Position numbers and translations under genes: made by a program. Of a stretch of DNA of 64,000 nt, positions 54,649 through 63,868 are shown piece after piece. The number at the start of each line of letters is the position of its first letter. Positions within the stretch are counted from its first letter, which is position 1. Origin of the DNA: an uncultured Burkholderiales bacterium (lineage in GTDB: Bacteria > Pseudomonadota > Gammaproteobacteria > Burkholderiales > Burkholderiaceae_C). A model generated the notes under the pieces. The model was not told the DNA's origin. It saw nothing but the letters and a program-made list of their open reading frames with translations, and made no database searches. The stretch covers positions 1-64,000 of the forward strand of contig CAISMH010000004.1 in the NCBI GenBank assembly GCA_903886485.1. Direction: 5' to 3'.

Positions 54649-55731
54649 TCAGCGAACATGCAGTTTGACAGCGTCAGTGGATGCTGCTGCCGTGATCTCG
54701 CCGATTTCAGCGGCGTTGGCAAATCCATGTTTTTGAAAGATCGCCATGACCTCGTTGACAGCCTCGGGTGCGCAGGCCACCAACAAACCGCCACTGGTTT
54801 GGGGGTCGCTCAGCAAGGCTTGGTCGATGGCGTCGCATTCAGGAGCAAGCGCAATTTCGTGTCCATAAGCAGACCAATTGCGGCCTGATGCGCCCGTGAT
54901 CATGCCTTGCTGGGCCAGTGCGCGTACCTCGGGCAACAAGGGAATTTGACGCATGTTCAATTGCACGGTGTGTTGGCTGCCACGAGCCATCTCAAGCGCA
55001 TGACCCGCCAAGCCAAAGCCCGTGACATCGGTCATGGCATGCACCCCCGTCAAGGCAGACAAGGCTGCACCCGGTGTGTTGAGTTGGGTGGTGTTGGCGA
55101 TCATGTGCGCGTAGCCCTCGGTACTGAGTGCGTTCTTTTTCAGGGCCGCAGAAAGTACGCCAACGCCCAAGGGCTTGCCCAAGATCAAGCGATCACCCAC
55201 ACGTGCATTGGCATTGCGCTTGATACGTTTTGGATGGACCAAACCCAGCACGACCAAGCCGTAAATGGGTTCCACCGAATCAATGGTGTGACCACCGGCA
55301 ATCGGAATGCCCGCTTCACGACAGATGCTTTGCCCGCCATCCAAGATTTTGCCAATCGTTTCTGGCGATAAGACGTTGATGGGCATACCGACCAAGGCCA
55401 AAGCCATGATGGGTGTGCCGCCCATGGCATACACATCACTGATGGCGTTGGTCGCAGCGATGCGACCAAAGTCAAACGGGTCATCAACGATGGGCATGAA
55501 GAAGTCGGTGGTGGCAATCAAGGCCTGCTCGTCGTTGAGCTGATAGACCGCTGCGTCATCTGCCGTTTCAATGCCCACCAACAACTGCGGCGGGATGGGC
55601 ATGGCCTGTGTGCTTTTGAGAATCTCGCTCAAGACACCGGGGGCGATCTTGCAGCCGCAACCACCGCCATGGGACAAACTGGTCAAGCGCGGGGATGTGT
55701 GTGTGGAGGGCGTGTGGGTCGCTGTGATCAT
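54649..55731 (-). CDS. selD: Selenide, water dikinase (selenophosphate synthase), Cys form
   Basis: About 360 residues. LSHGGGCGCKIAPGVL contains the active-site Cys (as in E. coli, so no selenocysteine) and Lys. DDAAVYQLNDEQALIATTDFFMPIVDDPFDFGRIAATNAISDVYAMGG is the ATP-binding AIRS-type fold, and DVTGFGLAGHALEMARGS closes the family pattern. The enzyme makes selenophosphate for selenocysteine or 2-selenouridine. No selA, selB or mnmH partner lies in the window. The ATG at 55731 has a weak RBS; upstream in-frame starts exist. Confidence 0.92.
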   Translation of the reverse strand: MITATHTPSTHTSPRLTSLSHGGGCGCKIAPGVLSEILKSTQAMPIPPQLLVGIETADDAAVYQLNDEQALIATTDFFMPIVDDPFDFGRIAATNAISDVYAMGGTPIMALALVGMPINVLSPETIGKILDGGQSICREAGIPIAGGHTIDSVEPIYGLVVLGLVHPKRIKRNANARVGDRLILGKPLGVGVLSAALKKNALSTEGYAHMIANTTQLNTPGAALSALTGVHAMTDVTGFGLAGHALEMARGSQHTVQLNMRQIPLLPEVRALAQQGMITGASGRNWSAYGHEIALAPECDAIDQALLSDPQTSGGLLVACAPEAVNEVMAIFQKHGFANAAEIGEITAAASTDAVKLHVR

Positions 55732-55844
55732 AAGAGGCTTGTGTTGCGTGAGACTAGATTTTGCCAGCAGCGCATGCACAGACCCTCAAATGAAGCCATC
55801 ACTCTGATTTCTTCATGCAGTTTTCTGTTGTGAGTTTGAAGACA

Positions 55845-56636
55845 TCAGATGACTTTGAGCGTGATGTTCGGTAGTCCATCAATGTGACCTTCCATCGTGT
55901 CGCCTTTGACAACAGGGCCTACGTTTTCTGGCGTGCCTGCGTAAATGATGTCACCTGGCATGAGTTCAAACGCTGCAGATAGCTGGCTAATTTGCTCGGC
56001 AACAGACCAGATCATTTGCGCCAAATTGGCTTCTTGCTTGATGACTCCGTTGACCTTTAACCAAATCGCACCTTCTTTGAAATGGCCAAATTTTTCAACG
56101 GGGTGAATAGGGCCAATCGGTGCTGACTGGTCAAAACTTTTCCCAATTTCCCACGGCTTTTTTTGATCACCCATGGCGCGCTGCAAATCACGACGTGTCA
56201 TGTCCAGCCCTATGGCGTATCCATAGACACACTCAAGTGCTTTGTCGACTGGAATATTTCGCCCACCTTTGGCCAGTGCTGCGACCAGTTCAATTTCGTG
56301 GTGGTAGTTTTTTGTGAGGGGCGGGTAGGGGTGGTGGACGGTTTGCCCGACAGGCACAAGTTGAATGGCGTCAGTCGGTTTTTGAAAGAAAAACGGAGGC
56401 TCACGTGTCGGATCCGAGCCCATTTCAAGGGCGTGTGCGGCGTAGTTTCTACCGATGCAATAAATACGACGGACTGGAAAAACTTTGTGTGAACCAACAA
56501 TAGGTATGGTGGTTGTCGCGACTTTGAATAGCGTTTTAGCTGCGCTGTCCGCCATGACAGTTGGTGTGTAGCCAGCGAATGCGCTCAATCCAACTGCGCC
56601 TGCTTTTGTGAACAGGCCTCTCTTTTCAGCATCCAT
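55845..56636 (-). CDS. Fumarylacetoacetate hydrolase-fold protein with an N-terminal export-like leader
   Basis: 263 residues. The FAH domain starts near residue 55 with RIYCIGRNYAAHALEMG, then PPFFFQKPTDAI, HHEIELVAAL (acidic metal ligands), YGYAIGLDMTRRDLQ and GDIIYAGTPENVGPV. This pattern fits fumarylpyruvate-hydrolase-like enzymes that split acylpyruvates. Unusually, residues 1-35 (KRGLFTKAGAVGLSAFAG ... TPTVMADS) resemble a Tat leader with KR in place of RR. Most family members are cytoplasmic, so a periplasmic location would be uncommon. Upstream neighbours also encode exported proteins. Confidence 0.85.
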   Translation of the reverse strand: MDAEKRGLFTKAGAVGLSAFAGYTPTVMADSAAKTLFKVATTTIPIVGSHKVFPVRRIYCIGRNYAAHALEMGSDPTREPPFFFQKPTDAIQLVPVGQTVHHPYPPLTKNYHHEIELVAALAKGGRNIPVDKALECVYGYAIGLDMTRRDLQRAMGDQKKPWEIGKSFDQSAPIGPIHPVEKFGHFKEGAIWLKVNGVIKQEANLAQMIWSVAEQISQLSAAFELMPGDIIYAGTPENVGPVVKGDTMEGHIDGLPNITLKVI

Positions 56637-56726
56637 GGTTTCTTCCTTTTTTGCAATGACGACGCATGCTATGAGTGCGGTTCATTCCCCATGAGAGTGA
56701 AAACCCTTGCGCACAGCCCAAATTCG

Positions 56727-57524
56727 CTAGGGTGCAAGCACGGCGCCTTCAATTTTGTGGCGGAGCAAACTCTCGCGGACAAAGCCATTGGATTTCATTT
56801 CAGCAATGAAGTTTGTTAATGCCTCTTTCGCGAGCGCAGAGCTGTTTTTCGGTTGCCCCATGGCTTGTTCAATCCACATGAAGTGTCCAGGTAACAAGCG
56901 CAGACCTTCTGTTTTTTGTGCGTCGGATTCAAGTTGTTGCTTGACCCCAGCAGCAACGTCATACGAGCCGTCCATGAAGAAAGAAACGACTTGCGGTGAG
57001 GTGGGCGCGCGAACCAATTGGGCTTGTTTGAGTTCCCGAGTTAGAAATAAATCGTATGCACTGCCTTTGCCGACCACCACTTGGTGCTGCGCTTGATCGA
57101 CTTGCTCGTTGCGCATCAAGGGTGAATTTTTTTTCACCAAATAACTTCCTTCGATCACGACATAGGGCGGGCTGAATGAAATGCCTTGCCCACGCACAGG
57201 ATCGATGGCAAAAAAACCAAGGTCTGCGTTGCCTTGCGTCACCGCCTCGACAGATTTCGCGGCGGAGTTTACCGGTATGAGTTTCAGCGGTAGGTTGAAT
57301 TTTTGAGCGAGGGCTTGGGCCAAATCGACGGACACACCCACGGGCTCACCTGTGGATGGGTCCGTCCGCGCAAGAATGGGATTGCCAAGGTTGATCACGG
57401 CGCGCAATGTACCGGTAGGCGCCATGTGTTTCCCAATCTCTGTGGTCGTTTGCGCCCAAGCCAGCGGGTGTGACAGGGCGATCAAAGTCAGCCCCGCCAA
57501 CACCGCTTTCAGCCTTGCCTTCAT
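56727..57524 (-). CDS. Family 3 extracellular solute-binding protein
   Basis: 265 residues. A signal peptide (MKARLKAVLAGLTLIALSHPLAWA) is followed by GTLRAVINLGNPILA, GVSVDLAQALAQKFNLPLKLIPVNSAAKSVEAVTQGNADLGFFAIDPVRGQGISFSPPYVVIEGSYLV, the amino-acid-binding-protein fold. No permease or ATPase gene is adjacent. It follows the MBL-fold gene by six bases, so they are probably co-transcribed. Ligand unknown. Confidence 0.88.
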   Translation of the reverse strand: MKARLKAVLAGLTLIALSHPLAWAQTTTEIGKHMAPTGTLRAVINLGNPILARTDPSTGEPVGVSVDLAQALAQKFNLPLKLIPVNSAAKSVEAVTQGNADLGFFAIDPVRGQGISFSPPYVVIEGSYLVKKNSPLMRNEQVDQAQHQVVVGKGSAYDLFLTRELKQAQLVRAPTSPQVVSFFMDGSYDVAAGVKQQLESDAQKTEGLRLLPGHFMWIEQAMGQPKNSSALAKEALTNFIAEMKSNGFVRESLLRHKIEGAVLAP

Positions 57525-57530
57525 CTCGGT

Positions 57531-58394
57531 TTAAAACTCAAGCGTTTGGCCTTCCGTCATTGGCACAACCTTGACGGAGCTGCCTTTCATGGCTTTTTGA
57601 AATTCTTCCAACGTGCCTTTGGCCAAGGGATTGGAGTTGTAATGGATTGGGATCACCATCTTGGGCTTGATCCACTGACGTGCGGCATAGGCAGCGTCTT
57701 CGGGGTCCATCGTGAAGTTGCCACCAATGGGCATCAACACCAAATCAGGTTTGTAGCGTTCAGAGATGAACTTCATGTCACCAAAGAGCCCAGTATCACC
57801 CATGTGCCAAATTTTGAAGCCATTTTCCAACTCAATGATGTAGCCCACCGCTTCGCCCGCAGGGTGTGACTCGAGTTTCTCAGTGGCTGGGTTTTTCCAA
57901 ACATACAGGGACGAGTGTTCAGCTTGTACCGCGGTGACTTTGATGCCGGGAAGTGGTTTGACGCTGCCCGACTTGTTGAAGCGATGCGTCAACTCAGCAG
58001 GCATGACGCCCAGAGTAACCAAAGGCGTGATCATGTCGGCAGGCCCGTACAGCACAGTTTTGTGCAGCTTGGCCAAAGCCGGTGCATCGCCGATGTGATC
58101 GACGTGCGCGTGCGTCACCAACAGCAGGTCTACCTTGCCTAGGGCGGCAATGTCAGTTTTATAAGGCGCGGGTGTTTTGGGGCCACCTGTGAGCCAAGGG
58201 TCCACCACGATGGTTTGGCCACCGGGCGACTTGATACGAAAACCAGCTTGTCCCAACCAAAGAACTTCTGTTTTGGCCTGAACAGCGCTGGTTGTGGTTT
58301 GAGCCAAGCTGCTGGTGATCCCGATGGCAGCGAAGCTCAACAGCATGCAAGCCTTGATCCGCATGGCATGCAACCGACTGATTTGAGATGACAT
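57531..58394 (-). CDS. Exported metallo-beta-lactamase-fold hydrolase
   Basis: 287 residues. A signal peptide (MRIKACMLLSFAAIGITSSLAQ) precedes a UPF0173-like MBL domain: LWLGQAGFRI, VVDPWL, LLLVTHAHVDHIGDAPAL (HxHxDH), HMGDTGLFGDM and IPIHYNSNP. The family acts as zinc-dependent hydrolases of unknown substrate. AAGGA lies eight bases before the chosen ATG; a second ATG 18 bases upstream is possible. Probably the first gene of a short operon of exported proteins. Confidence 0.88.
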   Translation of the reverse strand: MSSQISRLHAMRIKACMLLSFAAIGITSSLAQTTTSAVQAKTEVLWLGQAGFRIKSPGGQTIVVDPWLTGGPKTPAPYKTDIAALGKVDLLLVTHAHVDHIGDAPALAKLHKTVLYGPADMITPLVTLGVMPAELTHRFNKSGSVKPLPGIKVTAVQAEHSSLYVWKNPATEKLESHPAGEAVGYIIELENGFKIWHMGDTGLFGDMKFISERYKPDLVLMPIGGNFTMDPEDAAYAARQWIKPKMVIPIHYNSNPLAKGTLEEFQKAMKGSSVKVVPMTEGQTLEF

Positions 58395-58430
58395 GGTGTG
58401 TTCCTTATTCATTAAATTCAACACGCACAT

Positions 58431-59221: not shown

Positions 59222-59764
59222 TCATGCCCTTTTGGTGAAAGATAGCGTGACATCACCCAAGTGAATACCCAATTTGGTCATGCGCGCCTTGTTGAGCATG
59301 ACGCGCTCGTTCATCAGGTACATCCAATCGTCCATTTGCACGTTCAAGATCCTGCCGTCCACGGGAAGGGCGAGGGTATAGCCCCAGTTGAAGGCGTTGC
59401 CTTTGGCTTGTCCCTGCGCAGTGCCCACCACATCACCTGCGGTCCCTGTGAACTGGCCGTGACCGAGGTCAGTCAGCGTCCATATTCTTTTCTCTTGCGT
59501 GCCATCGGAATACGAAAAGTCCTCATCCAAGGTGCCGATGTCTTTGTTCCAGTGGCATTTCATTTCAACGGTGAAACGTTTCACAACTTTGCCATTGCGA
59601 TCCGTGAAGATGCCCCAAGCATCGATGACGCCATTGAAGTAGGTGCGCAAATCTAGTTCGGGCTTTTGTCCTGCGTAATCTTCAATCGTCGGTGTTGCAC
59701 ATCCTGTCAGACCGAGGGTTGTGGTGGCCACGCCACCCCATAAAAGCATTCGACGATTCATCAT
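59222..59764 (-). CDS. DUF3833 family lipoprotein
   Basis: 180 residues. The leader MMNRRMLLWGGVATTTLGLTGC ends in a lipobox Cys. DLRTYFNGVIDAWGIFTDRNGKVVKRFTVEMKCHW and YSDGTQEKRIWTLTDLG, then LNVQMDDWMYLMNERVMLNKARMTKLGIHLGDVTLSF match DUF3833. Family members are often found with DUF2878 and cyclopropane-fatty-acid genes. Only the DUF2878 neighbour is present here. It overlaps that gene by four bases. Confidence 0.9.
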   Translation of the reverse strand: MMNRRMLLWGGVATTTLGLTGCATPTIEDYAGQKPELDLRTYFNGVIDAWGIFTDRNGKVVKRFTVEMKCHWNKDIGTLDEDFSYSDGTQEKRIWTLTDLGHGQFTGTAGDVVGTAQGQAKGNAFNWGYTLALPVDGRILNVQMDDWMYLMNERVMLNKARMTKLGIHLGDVTLSFTKRA

Positions 59765-60397: not shown

Positions 60398-61162
60398 TTA
60401 GCCGCCCACGATGGCCTTGACTGCCAAATAAAGGACAGACGGGCCCATGAGGCAACCCAGACCTGTGTGAAATGTGGCAACCAATGCGCCATAGGGGACT
60501 AAACGTCTATCCGTCGCAGCAAGGCCGGCTGAAACGCCGCTGACTGTGCCAGCTAAACCGCCGAAGACCATGGCTGAGCGTGGGTTGTTGAGCCCCATGA
60601 ACTTGGCCAGCACTGGTGTGAAAACCATCACCATGATGGCTTTCACAACACCTGTCGCAATGGATAAAGCCATGATGTCTGAGCTAGCGCCAATGGCTGC
60701 GCCCGTGACAGGTCCGACGATGTAAGTCACCGCACCCGCACCAATGGTGGTCATGTCAATTGCACTTGTGTAACCCATGGCGTAGGCAACACTTGCGCCA
60801 AAGATGAACGGAATGATGGTTCCCAAAAACAAAGAAACGACACCGATGATGCCTGCCTTGCGGGCTTGCATGACATTGACCTCAAAGGCCGTTGCCACAA
60901 TGGCGAAGTCACGCATCATGGCGCCCCCCATCAAACCGATGCCTGCGAAAATTTTCACATCAGCAATCCCTTTTGTGCCGCCTGTTTGCAGTCCCCCCCA
61001 ATAGGCCAATCCAAGTCCGATCAGGATGGCAATGGCTGAGCCGTGAACACGCCCAAATGTGAGATAGCGCGACAACTTGACAGACAGCAGCATGACCAAT
61101 CCGACAACAGCAAAGGCGAAGACCAAGCTGTTGCTGTTAATTGCATTTTCGAGTTCGTGCAT
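60398..61162 (-). CDS. madM: Malonate transporter subunit MadM
   Basis: 254 residues with eight or nine hydrophobic segments. VKLSRYLTFGRVHGSAIAILIGLGLAYWGGL and KAGIIGVVSLFLGTIIPFIFGASVAYAMGYTSAIDMTTIGAGAVTYIVGPVTGAAIGASSDIMALSIATGVVKAI fit MadM, the larger subunit of the Na+/malonate symporter first described in Malonomonas. It follows madL by 24 bases. Together they import malonate for the CoA ligase and decarboxylase encoded divergently. Confidence 0.94.
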   Translation of the reverse strand: MHELENAINSNSLVFAFAVVGLVMLLSVKLSRYLTFGRVHGSAIAILIGLGLAYWGGLQTGGTKGIADVKIFAGIGLMGGAMMRDFAIVATAFEVNVMQARKAGIIGVVSLFLGTIIPFIFGASVAYAMGYTSAIDMTTIGAGAVTYIVGPVTGAAIGASSDIMALSIATGVVKAIMVMVFTPVLAKFMGLNNPRSAMVFGGLAGTVSGVSAGLAATDRRLVPYGALVATFHTGLGCLMGPSVLYLAVKAIVGG

Positions 61163-61186
61163 TTTTTTTCCAAAGTATTCGTTTAA

Positions 61187-61591
61187 TTACTGGGGTGTCT
61201 CTGACTTGGCAATGTCTTTCCAAGACTCGTCATGGTCTTGCGGTCCGACTCTGTTGATCAACGCGATGGTTGCCGCGCACAGAAGCACCGAGCCCAACGC
61301 CGCAATCAGCGCTACAGGGCCACCACGGAGTGCGGCCATGACGTTTTGCTGGGCAGCCATGGCGACCACGACGGGGATGTACATCAGTGACCAAAACTCA
61401 ACACCTGCTTCCGTCGTTTTTGGCATCAACCCGTGCTTGTGCATCCAGATACGGACTGCGATGAGCAAGATCATTGCGATACCTACACCTCCAACGTTTG
61501 CCTTGACGCCAATCGCCATGCCTAGCAAGTCACCGATGTAGGCGCCCATCAAATGGCAGGCTGCTAAAAGGGCTGTTCCGTAAATGATCAT
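61187..61591 (-). CDS. madL: Malonate transporter subunit MadL
   Basis: 134 residues with about four hydrophobic helices. MIIYGTALLAACHLMGAYIGDLLGMAIGVKANVGGVGIAMILLIAVR is the conserved MadL N-terminus. It is the small partner of MadM and starts directly at the divergent operator region. Confidence 0.95.
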   Translation of the reverse strand: MIIYGTALLAACHLMGAYIGDLLGMAIGVKANVGGVGIAMILLIAVRIWMHKHGLMPKTTEAGVEFWSLMYIPVVVAMAAQQNVMAALRGGPVALIAALGSVLLCAATIALINRVGPQDHDESWKDIAKSETPQ

Positions 61592-61640
61592 TTGAGCTCC
61601 ACGTATCTAAAAAATTGTTGTAATGTCAAAGACATGATTA

Positions 61641-61666
61641 TAATTATCCGTAATTACACGTTATTA
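61641..61666. promoter_or_regulatory. Two overlapping TAATTA-type operators of malonate module 2
   Basis: TAATTATCCGTAATTA (61641-61656) and TAATTACACGTTATTA (61651-61666) overlap by six bases. Each agrees at 14 of 16 positions with the perfect palindrome in front of the module 1 regulator. A further half-site GGTAATTACC lies at 61669-61678, just before the start codon. The region is shared by madL and the regulator, so one repressor could control both directions. Confidence 0.7.
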
Positions 61667-61679
61667 GGGGTAATTACCA

Positions 61680-62381
61680 ATGTCTATCGACGACAAATTC
61701 AAGTCGTTACATCACGAGGTGGCTGATCGTTTGCGCGAGCAAATCTTCAGCGGCACGCTGGTGGCGGGAGATTTCCTTGATGAAAGCAAGCTGTGTCAAG
61801 CGCTTTCAATTTCTCGTACACCCCTAAGAGAAGCCTTGAAAGTGCTCACCGCCGAGGGGCTGTTACGGCATGAACCTCGGCGCGGTTGTTTTGTTAACCA
61901 AGTCACGGAGCAAGATCTCGATGAGATTTTTCCTGTGCTGGCATTGCTTGAAGGTCGTTGTGCTTATGAGGCCACGAACAGGGCGACTGACGCAGACCTG
62001 TCAACCTTAGAAGGAATGCACCAGCAACTTCAAAAGCTCGCCAATACCGAGCAACTGAATGAGTATTACGAACTCAATTTCCAAATTCATGAGGCGTTCA
62101 TCGTGCTCGCTGCCAATCGTTGGCTGACCCAGATGATTGGGGACTTGCGAAAGCTTTTAAAGCTGTCGCGCCAGCAGCAGCTGCGCTTGCCCGGTCGTTT
62201 GAACGACAGTCTCAAAGAACATCAACAGATCTTCAATGCGATGAAAAACCGCAACCCTGAAGCGGCTGAAAAAACCATGCGACATCACATTGAAAGCCAG
62301 CGTGAGGCATTGAAGCAACTGAAGAATTCGGCGCTGAATTCTTCGATTCATCTTTTTGAAAGAAATGGAAGGTCGATATGA
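61680..62381 (+). CDS. GntR-family regulator, FCD type (malonate module 2)
   Basis: A 233-residue close paralogue of the regulator in module 1. The winged helix (LHHEVADRLREQIFSGTLVAGDFLDESKLCQALSISRTPLREALKVLTAEGLLRHEPRRGCFV) and FCD domain (LDEIFPVLALLEGR, FQIHEAFIVL, LKEHQQIF, MRHHIESQ) have the same metal-site pattern. It overlaps the malonyl-CoA decarboxylase gene by four bases and faces madL. By analogy with MatR it should sense malonate or malonyl-CoA. Confidence 0.9.
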   Translation: MSIDDKFKSLHHEVADRLREQIFSGTLVAGDFLDESKLCQALSISRTPLREALKVLTAEGLLRHEPRRGCFVNQVTEQDLDEIFPVLALLEGRCAYEATNRATDADLSTLEGMHQQLQKLANTEQLNEYYELNFQIHEAFIVLAANRWLTQMIGDLRKLLKLSRQQQLRLPGRLNDSLKEHQQIFNAMKNRNPEAAEKTMRHHIESQREALKQLKNSALNSSIHLFERNGRSI

Positions 62382-63868
62382 ACACCTCAACTTGGATTGG
62401 CCGTGGCGTGACAAAGTTCCTTCCTGCAGCCAAAGGGATGGTTGGGCACAAAGACACAGCGAATTCGCATGGCGAAGTTGCCGTGCTCAAGGGGAGCCAT
62501 GTTGCCGCCCCAGCGAAGGGGCAACGCTCGTGTGCTGAACGTATGGACGCAACCTTTAGTTTGAAAACAGAGGCAATGTCTCCGCGTATGTTGCGACGCA
62601 CCTATGAGTTACTCAAGGCCATCATTGATCCGCGTGTCAGCGAGGTAGAGGGGGGGAGGCGCGCCGAGGCATTTGCAGCACTGTACAAAGACGCAACCAT
62701 TGATCGTCGCAAGGATGTATGGCTGCTGATGAGTGAAATGTTTGTGGCTGATCAGAAAAAAGTGAAAGAGGCGCAGGCTAAATTAGCCGCCGCTTTGGGC
62801 ACGGCAGATGAAGCCGTTGCGGAAGTTCACTTCAGACGTGAGACTGTTTCTCCCCGTCGACGATTGCTCCAACGTTTCAGTGTGTATCCAGAGGGCGTGC
62901 AATTTTTGGTTGACTTACGTGCCGAGCTACAAGCTGCATTGAAGACTGACAAGCGACTTCAAGCACTTGATGTCGAAATGGAATACATGTTTTCAACATG
63001 GTTCGATGTGGGCTTCTTGGAGCTGCGTCGTATGAGTTGGAACTCGCCCGCGTCACTGATTGAGAGGCTGATTCAATACGAAGCGGTTCACGACATCAAA
63101 AGCTGGGCGGATGTCAAAAACAGACTCGACAGCGACAGACGTTGTTATGGCTTCTTTCACCCACGCTTGCCTGAAATTCCTTTGATTTTTGTGGAAGTGG
63201 CGTTGGTCGACGAAATTGCAAGTGACATCGTTCCATTGCTCGATGAGCTCGGTGCCGAGGCAGATTTACAAAAAGCCACAACTGCTATTTTTTACTCCAT
63301 CAGTAACACGCAGGTCGGCTTACGCGGGGTGAGTTTTGGTGACTCTCTCATCAAAGCTGTTGTGGAGAAATTGAAAAAAGAATTCCCCAGACTCAAAGTG
63401 TTTGCGACGCTTTCGCCGATTCCTGGTTACCGAACTTGGCTTGAGAAAAACATTGCGACGCTGCTTGAAAAGCTTGAGCCTAAAGAACGTCAGGCTTTGG
63501 GACGCGCTGTTGGTTTTGAGCCTCCCGCTGCAACCCATTTTTTGTCCGCATTAGATGCACCTTTGCAGCTGTCGGAAAAATCTTTGGTGCGGCATTACTT
63601 GATGCGTTTTGCCGCCGAGTACTTAGGTCGTTTGAACGCAAAAGGCCACCCAACAGATCCCGTGGCCAGGTTTCATCTGGGCAATGGTGCGCGTGTCGAC
63701 CGACTGAACTGGGCGGGCGATCCTTCGTCCAAAGGCGTGAAGCAGTCTTACGGATTGATGGTGAACTATTTGTATGACCTCAAGCGCTTAGACAAAAACA
63801 GAGCGTTGTTGGCCGATGGCGAAGTGCCAGTTTCAAGTGGCATTGAAGATCTGATGTTCAAGAGCTGA
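62378..63868 (+). CDS. matA: Malonyl-CoA decarboxylase
   Basis: 496 residues. The N-terminal helical domain (SPRMLRRTYELLKAIIDPRVSEVEGGRRAEAFAALYKDA) is followed by the catalytic GNAT-like domain with PLIFVEVALVDEIASDIVPLLDE, FYSISNTQVGLRGVSFGDSLIKAVVEKLKKEFPRLKVFATLSPIPGYRTWL (catalytic Ser region) and VARFHLGNGARVDRLNWAGD (catalytic His region). It converts malonyl-CoA to acetyl-CoA and CO2. GGAAGG precedes the ATG. The first ~65 residues are family-atypical, so a later start is possible. matB follows 26 bases downstream. Confidence 0.93.
   Translation: MNTSTWIGRGVTKFLPAAKGMVGHKDTANSHGEVAVLKGSHVAAPAKGQRSCAERMDATFSLKTEAMSPRMLRRTYELLKAIIDPRVSEVEGGRRAEAFAALYKDATIDRRKDVWLLMSEMFVADQKKVKEAQAKLAAALGTADEAVAEVHFRRETVSPRRRLLQRFSVYPEGVQFLVDLRAELQAALKTDKRLQALDVEMEYMFSTWFDVGFLELRRMSWNSPASLIERLIQYEAVHDIKSWADVKNRLDSDRRCYGFFHPRLPEIPLIFVEVALVDEIASDIVPLLDELGAEADLQKATTAIFYSISNTQVGLRGVSFGDSLIKAVVEKLKKEFPRLKVFATLSPIPGYRTWLEKNIATLLEKLEPKERQALGRAVGFEPPAATHFLSALDAPLQLSEKSLVRHYLMRFAAEYLGRLNAKGHPTDPVARFHLGNGARVDRLNWAGDPSSKGVKQSYGLMVNYLYDLKRLDKNRALLADGEVPVSSGIEDLMFKS

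Follow-up and report, generated by a model that had tools for sequence, protein, structure and literature searches.

The window, as the term is used here, is the whole analysed stretch of 64,000 nucleotides from an uncultured Burkholderiales bacterium. The genes considered lie on its minus strand at positions 54649-58430:

54649..55779, minus strand: selD-like gene, next after the FAH gene, with AIRS and AIRS_C domains, used for collinearity
55845..56636, minus strand: FAH-fold enzyme (PF01557) of 263 amino acids, a member of the leader-bearing clade, with its predicted fold and active-site residues
56553..56636, minus strand: predicted Tat-type leader of the FAH protein, residues 1-28, with KR at 5-6 and no lipobox
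56727..57524, minus strand: family-3 solute-binding protein (SBP; PF00497, 53 bits) with a Sec-type leader
57531..58394, minus strand: PRK00685-like MBL-fold hydrolase (NF001911, 204.7 bits) with a Sec-type leader

On the minus strand the order is MBL, SBP, FAH, the intervals being 6 and 90 bases; the FAH stop lies at 55845, and at 58394 there is an ATG in frame with the MBL open reading frame, which can be extended to 58430. Domain searches returned 175 bits for FAA_hydrolase PF01557 (cut-off 23.9), 53 for SBP_bac_3 and 93 for Lactamase_B_2, and the MBL protein exceeded the cut-off of the NCBIfam 'metal-dependent hydrolase' PRK00685 (204.7 vs. 144 bits). An earlier sequence-only reading had named these three proteins in this order, each with an export-like leader, and both the exact coordinates and the domain searches agree with it. 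The gene at 54649..55779 we take to be selD, and no permease gene adjoins the SBP gene in the list of open reading frames. Further along, a DUF3833 protein (59222-59764, minus strand) carries a leader, NRRMLLWGGVATTTLGLTGC, which also resembles that of a Tat-type lipoprotein, and positions 60398-63868 hold a malonate-use cluster made up of the MadM and MadL transporter genes, a divergent GntR regulator and malonyl-CoA decarboxylase.

FAH-family enzymes are regarded as cytoplasmic, and the leader of the window FAH protein had been described as Tat-like and unexpected. The N-terminus, MDAEKRGLFTKAGAVGLSAFAGYTPTVMA-DSAA, begins at an ATG (56636) preceded by a good ribosome site, AAGGAAGAAACC, whereas none was seen in front of the in-frame ATG at residue 28. 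An SPase I-like site in the leader, VMA↓DS, was assigned by eye, with VMA ending at residue 29; the lipobox cysteine by which a lipoprotein would be recognized is absent. Its core is weak, with a best 12-residue mean hydropathy of 1.23 against 2.28 in the SBP leader and 2.33 in the MBL leader, as would be expected of Tat rather than Sec; the clade median is 1.77 (115 leaders). The description as Tat-like is supported, and orthologues retain the leader, but the motif in this copy is KR rather than RR and the core is weak. The same genome encodes a Tat translocase (TatC and two TatA/B matches, all on contig C17). PhoA reaches its folded state only once exported, and fusions to it would be ill suited to testing Tat transport.

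Retention of the leader in orthologues, which the sequence-only reading had proposed as a check, was found at every place of a family sample of 399 evenly drawn genomes searched at E 1e-95 or better. Sixty-five of these genomes, in 35 of 141 genera, were positive at 66 places, and all 66 leaders, each of which was read, have RR (60) or KR (6; neither, 0) followed by a hydrophobic stretch. A lipobox-like motif, scored with lenient patterns that vary slightly between counts, is present in 62 of the 66, and these orthologues are predicted to be Tat lipoproteins. A scan of named genomes, which took the best 80 of 563 relatives and is thereby biased to close ones, and which overlaps the family sample in part, gave KR or RR at 79 of 80 loci and a lipobox in 68 of those 79 leaders. 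The taxa include Limnohabitans, Polaromonas, Variovorax, Noviherbaspirillum, Herminiimonas and Rubrivivax, while some records are labelled Methylophilaceae, Sterolibacterium or 'Gammaproteobacteria' and were assumed to belong to the Burkholderiales in the GTDB sense. At closer range, matches of at least 68% identity occur in 15 of 61 genomes, the window's own included, and no further match exceeds 59%; an alignment of 15 genus members shows R6 to be invariant and position 5 to be R in 14 and K in the window.

Of the remoter matches, those read start near residue 40 and have no leader. Outside the clade, a leader was seen in 0 of 16 readable relatives out of 17 distinct ones (L025 is truncated where its contig ends, and the leaderless call for L030 rests on its start codon, upstream of which there is a chance RR). 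Nor was one seen in the seven other FAH-superfamily genes read, of eight other matches, in the window's own genome, which also holds a leaderless relative at C7:9106. The presence of such leaders at all 66 family places, and in none of the 16 readable relatives outside the clade, goes beyond chance. The leader is unexpected for the superfamily as a whole, as had been claimed, but not for the protein's own clade.

That clade is a single group of 118 rows (SH-aLRT 99, branch 0.63) in a quick tree of the mature domain built from 149 loci and 135 distinct rows. RR or KR is present in 115 of its rows; L137 has no twin motif, L149 has an interrupted frame and L155 has no leader. Among the clade members read, L155 alone is entirely leaderless, although most of the clade residues are present in it. 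RR occurs in 93 and KR in 22 of 117 clade rows. Presence or absence of the leader amounts to two changes on the quick tree, which would fit a single gain and a single loss, and the choice of RR or KR to at least seven. Presence of the lipobox changes six times; although such counts alone cannot separate gain from loss, most rows have a lipobox, and its loss in the window's branch would therefore be the simpler reading. The cysteine is also absent from six sister rows (L010-L012, L069, L071 and L072), which have RR in five cases, KR in one, and AxA-like sites.

In an order-level sample, 11 of 300 genomes were positive; besides the window's own genome, eight of the other ten have RR or KR, and the remaining two are the interrupted L149 and the leaderless L155. 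A class-level sample at E 1e-95 returned the window's own genome only (1 of 369), and at 1e-80 one more match, 57% identical and leaderless. In the samples examined, the clade is seen only within the Burkholderiales in the GTDB sense. Carriage on plasmids was considered and rejected, as all 130 matching plasmid records are below 60% identity and none reaches the level of the clade.

The predicted Tat-type export of the window FAH enzyme is well supported by these comparisons. Against it stand the KR of the window copy, its weak core, the leaderless L155, L137 without a twin motif and the interrupted L149. One could suppose decay in the window copy, which, with KR and without the cysteine, would be cytoplasmic or poorly exported while its orthologues are exported; its KR in place of RR, its lack of a lipobox and a core of 1.23 against the clade median of 1.77 would fit. 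However, KR recurs across the clade with at least seven RR/KR changes, the six cysteine-less sister rows retain their twin motif and AxA-like sites, and the active-site residues and ribosome site of the window copy are intact. In the available text of a 2019 review, moreover, a single Arg-to-Lys change is reported only to slow Tat transport, not to block it, in most bacteria (PMC6708511; similarly, in the part available, PMC1182353). We regard decay as unlikely, although not negligibly so. According to the same text of the review, no native KR cargo of Tat other than TtrB is known (PMC6708511), and the efficiency of export of the window copy may for that reason be low.

The sequence-only reading had also linked the three genes functionally, the product of a periplasmic hydrolysis being captured by the adjoining binding protein. 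The genes do share a strand, are separated by only 6 and 90 bases and all encode leaders. Their surroundings were compared across 91 loci, namely the window, 10 loci of the genus and 80 named loci (the best 80 of 563 relatives); for 21 of these 80, the sequence on one side is shorter than 3 kb, so that all neighbour counts are lower bounds. An MBL gene lies within 3 kb of FAH in at least 1 of the 91 loci, the window alone, and an SBP relative in at least 4 (the window and L182-L184), three of them on the opposite strand. In a related genome, G009, the nine genes from grpE to MBL stand in the window's order on contig C28 at 72-96% identity, with FAH missing, the selD-like gene directly after SBP and the G009 FAH on another contig. 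Four genomes of the genus have an exported PRK00685-like MBL paired with SBP_bac_3 (the window, G1093:C30, G009:C28 and G033:C1), and in the last three no orthologue of the window FAH stands beside the pair. SBP relatives do occur on the same contig as FAH, about 12 kb away, in G009 and G033. G1093 has a remote member of the FAH superfamily (L189:4102-4962, 34% identity), which is flanked by two Bug-type receptor genes and sits on the other strand at a distance of about 1.6 kb from the MBL-SBP pair.

Weighing these observations, we consider a functional unit of all three genes quite improbable, and the capture of the product by the adjoining SBP found no support in the comparison, nor did MBL-SBP-FAH as a conserved unit. 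Most likely, the MBL-SBP pair is a unit of its own and FAH stands beside it by rearrangement. FAH could have been inserted in the window lineage or lost from this place in G009; insertion would be the simpler view, because FAH stands in other surroundings in other loci, with the counterpoint that SBP relatives lie near FAH in L182-L184 and a distant FAH gene near the pair in G1093.

The neighbours of FAH differ between loci. Across the same 91 loci, 80 of them the best of 563 relatives, FAH is accompanied by an AraC-family regulator in at least 16, a dienelactone hydrolase in at least 9, a same-strand FAD monooxygenase in at least 7 and an amidohydrolase match in at least 5, one of which is partial. 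All nine dienelactone hydrolases have a [ST]RRTALK leader. Bug-type receptors occur near FAH in at least 21 of the 91, a count that takes in the window's distant one; many of them share about 30% identity. No ring-cleavage family was found beside FAH among 25 of the 33 families listed for 45 scanned neighbours. These neighbours suggest aromatic or lactone catabolism and name no substrate. In the window's sister branch (L067, L068, L069 and L072), FAH is followed on the same strand by a gene for a 725-amino-acid, exported-looking protein, with a gap of 31 bases in three of the four; for the L068 copy, neither Pfam nor NCBIfam gave a match at the thresholds applied.

With respect to chemistry, the active site was numbered by aligning the window FAH with FAHD1, the roles of the FAHD1 dyad, metal site and lysine being taken from the available text of PMC8398924. 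Ten active-site positions are intact (H68, E71, K86, E114, E116, D145, R149, Q152, K166 and G62), and, with L155 set aside, every one of the 117 clade rows keeps them, as do all 18 leaderless rows, among which L155 is counted; the intact active site alone does not separate the clade from its leaderless relatives. Nine other residues, S74, Q85, Q92, H102, K160, S167, M208, Q215 and N238, are fixed in 117 of 117 clade rows and are rare or absent in 17 leaderless relatives. N238, for instance, lies within the GTPENVG of the clade and is G in all 17. These clade-specific residues suggest a substrate other than fumarylpyruvate.

The predicted structure has an FAH fold from about residue 42 (mean pLDDT 71.7), with residues 1-37 below 50 and a poorly modelled lid at 64-74 and 150-167, and its nearest solved structure is 6j5y (TM 0.83 by target length). 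On the quick tree, the window FAH does not belong with the leaderless fumarylpyruvate hydrolases and falls in the separate clade. None of the named NCBIfam FAH equivalogs exceeded its cut-off, the best being PRK10691 (141.9 vs. 201 bits); the rhamnonate-pathway hydrolase scored 95.9 against 500. The best reading is that of a C-C hydrolase of the acylpyruvase type, predicted to be periplasmic and to serve a catabolic route, and periplasmic hydrolysis of an acylpyruvate by the window FAH is plausible. An ordinary cytoplasmic fumarylpyruvate hydrolase translated from downstream of the leader, as the ATG at residue 28 and the 57% identity to 6j5y might suggest, is very improbable, given that a ribosome site precedes ATG 56636 but not residue 28 (an internal start there was rejected), and given the family-wide conservation of the leader, which is not a start-site artefact, the nine clade-fixed residues and the separate leaderless relative at C7:9106.

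We think it likely that the FAH protein belongs to an exported clade composed mostly of Tat lipoproteins, that the window copy is a soluble periplasmic, acylpyruvase-like member, and that the MBL-SBP pair is separate from it. The leader, its conservation, the clade, the active-site residues and the gene order are read directly from the sequences; from them we infer the export, anchoring and chemistry of the clade as follows. An FAH protein of this Burkholderiales clade would fold with its metal in the cytoplasm and then be exported by Tat. In most members, the lipobox in the leader would make the product a predicted lipoprotein facing the periplasm, whereas in the window's branch, which has no cysteine, signal peptidase I would release it as a soluble periplasmic enzyme. 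Given the acylpyruvase-type active site, the likeliest chemistry would be divalent-metal-dependent hydrolysis (or decarboxylation) of a beta-keto acid, for example of an acylpyruvate to pyruvate and an acid. The FAH step would lie within a regulated catabolic route whose partner genes vary between species.

Acylpyruvate hydrolysis is treated as cytoplasmic. If the reading above is true, some freshwater and soil bacteria split acylpyruvate-type compounds in the envelope, which would bear on how such bacteria keep or share carbon, and a breakdown step that splits a carbon-carbon bond may occur outside the cytoplasm. The clade would also offer a natural series of signals (RR or KR, with or without a lipobox) on one folded, metal-binding cargo with which to probe what Tat accepts. 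More tentatively, and with somewhat less than even confidence, we suggest that envelope FAH C-C hydrolases may be Burkholderiales-wide, mostly as Tat lipoproteins and sometimes beside a Tat-exported dienelactone hydrolase, that late steps in the degradation of aromatics or lactones may thus proceed outside the cytoplasm, and that natural KR signals, held to be nearly unique to TtrB, may have arisen several times in the clade.

No description of Tat-exported FAH enzymes or of this clade was found in the open-licence literature searched. Within their available text, PMC5758756 and PMC3644233 contain nothing on export, PMC7116474 makes no mention of a periplasm or signal peptide, and PMC8778405 lists an FAH protein in a cytoplasmic fraction. 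The exoproteome of the Alphaproteobacterium Ruegeria pomeroyi includes a protein named FAH outside cells at low abundance (PMC5839243); the entry, as available, says nothing of a leader.

The leaders of the clade share with Tat signal peptides of the lipoprotein type, and with that of TtrB, the RR or KR motif, a weak hydrophobic core and, in 62 of the 66 family places, a lipobox; the window copy, however, lacks a lipobox, and TtrB is a different protein, a tetrathionate reductase subunit (PMC6708511 and PMC1182353, in the parts available). The mature domain has the FAH fold of the P. aeruginosa fumarylpyruvate hydrolase 6j5y (solved with Mn2+ and pyruvate), with 57% identity over that domain, but the 6j5y chain was solved without such a leader and the window FAH falls in a separate clade with clade-specific residues. 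Human FAHD1 (6fog), an acylpyruvase and oxaloacetate decarboxylase, is about 40% identical, and its dyad, metal-site residues and lysine have counterparts in the window FAH, although FAHD1 is mitochondrial and not Tat-exported.
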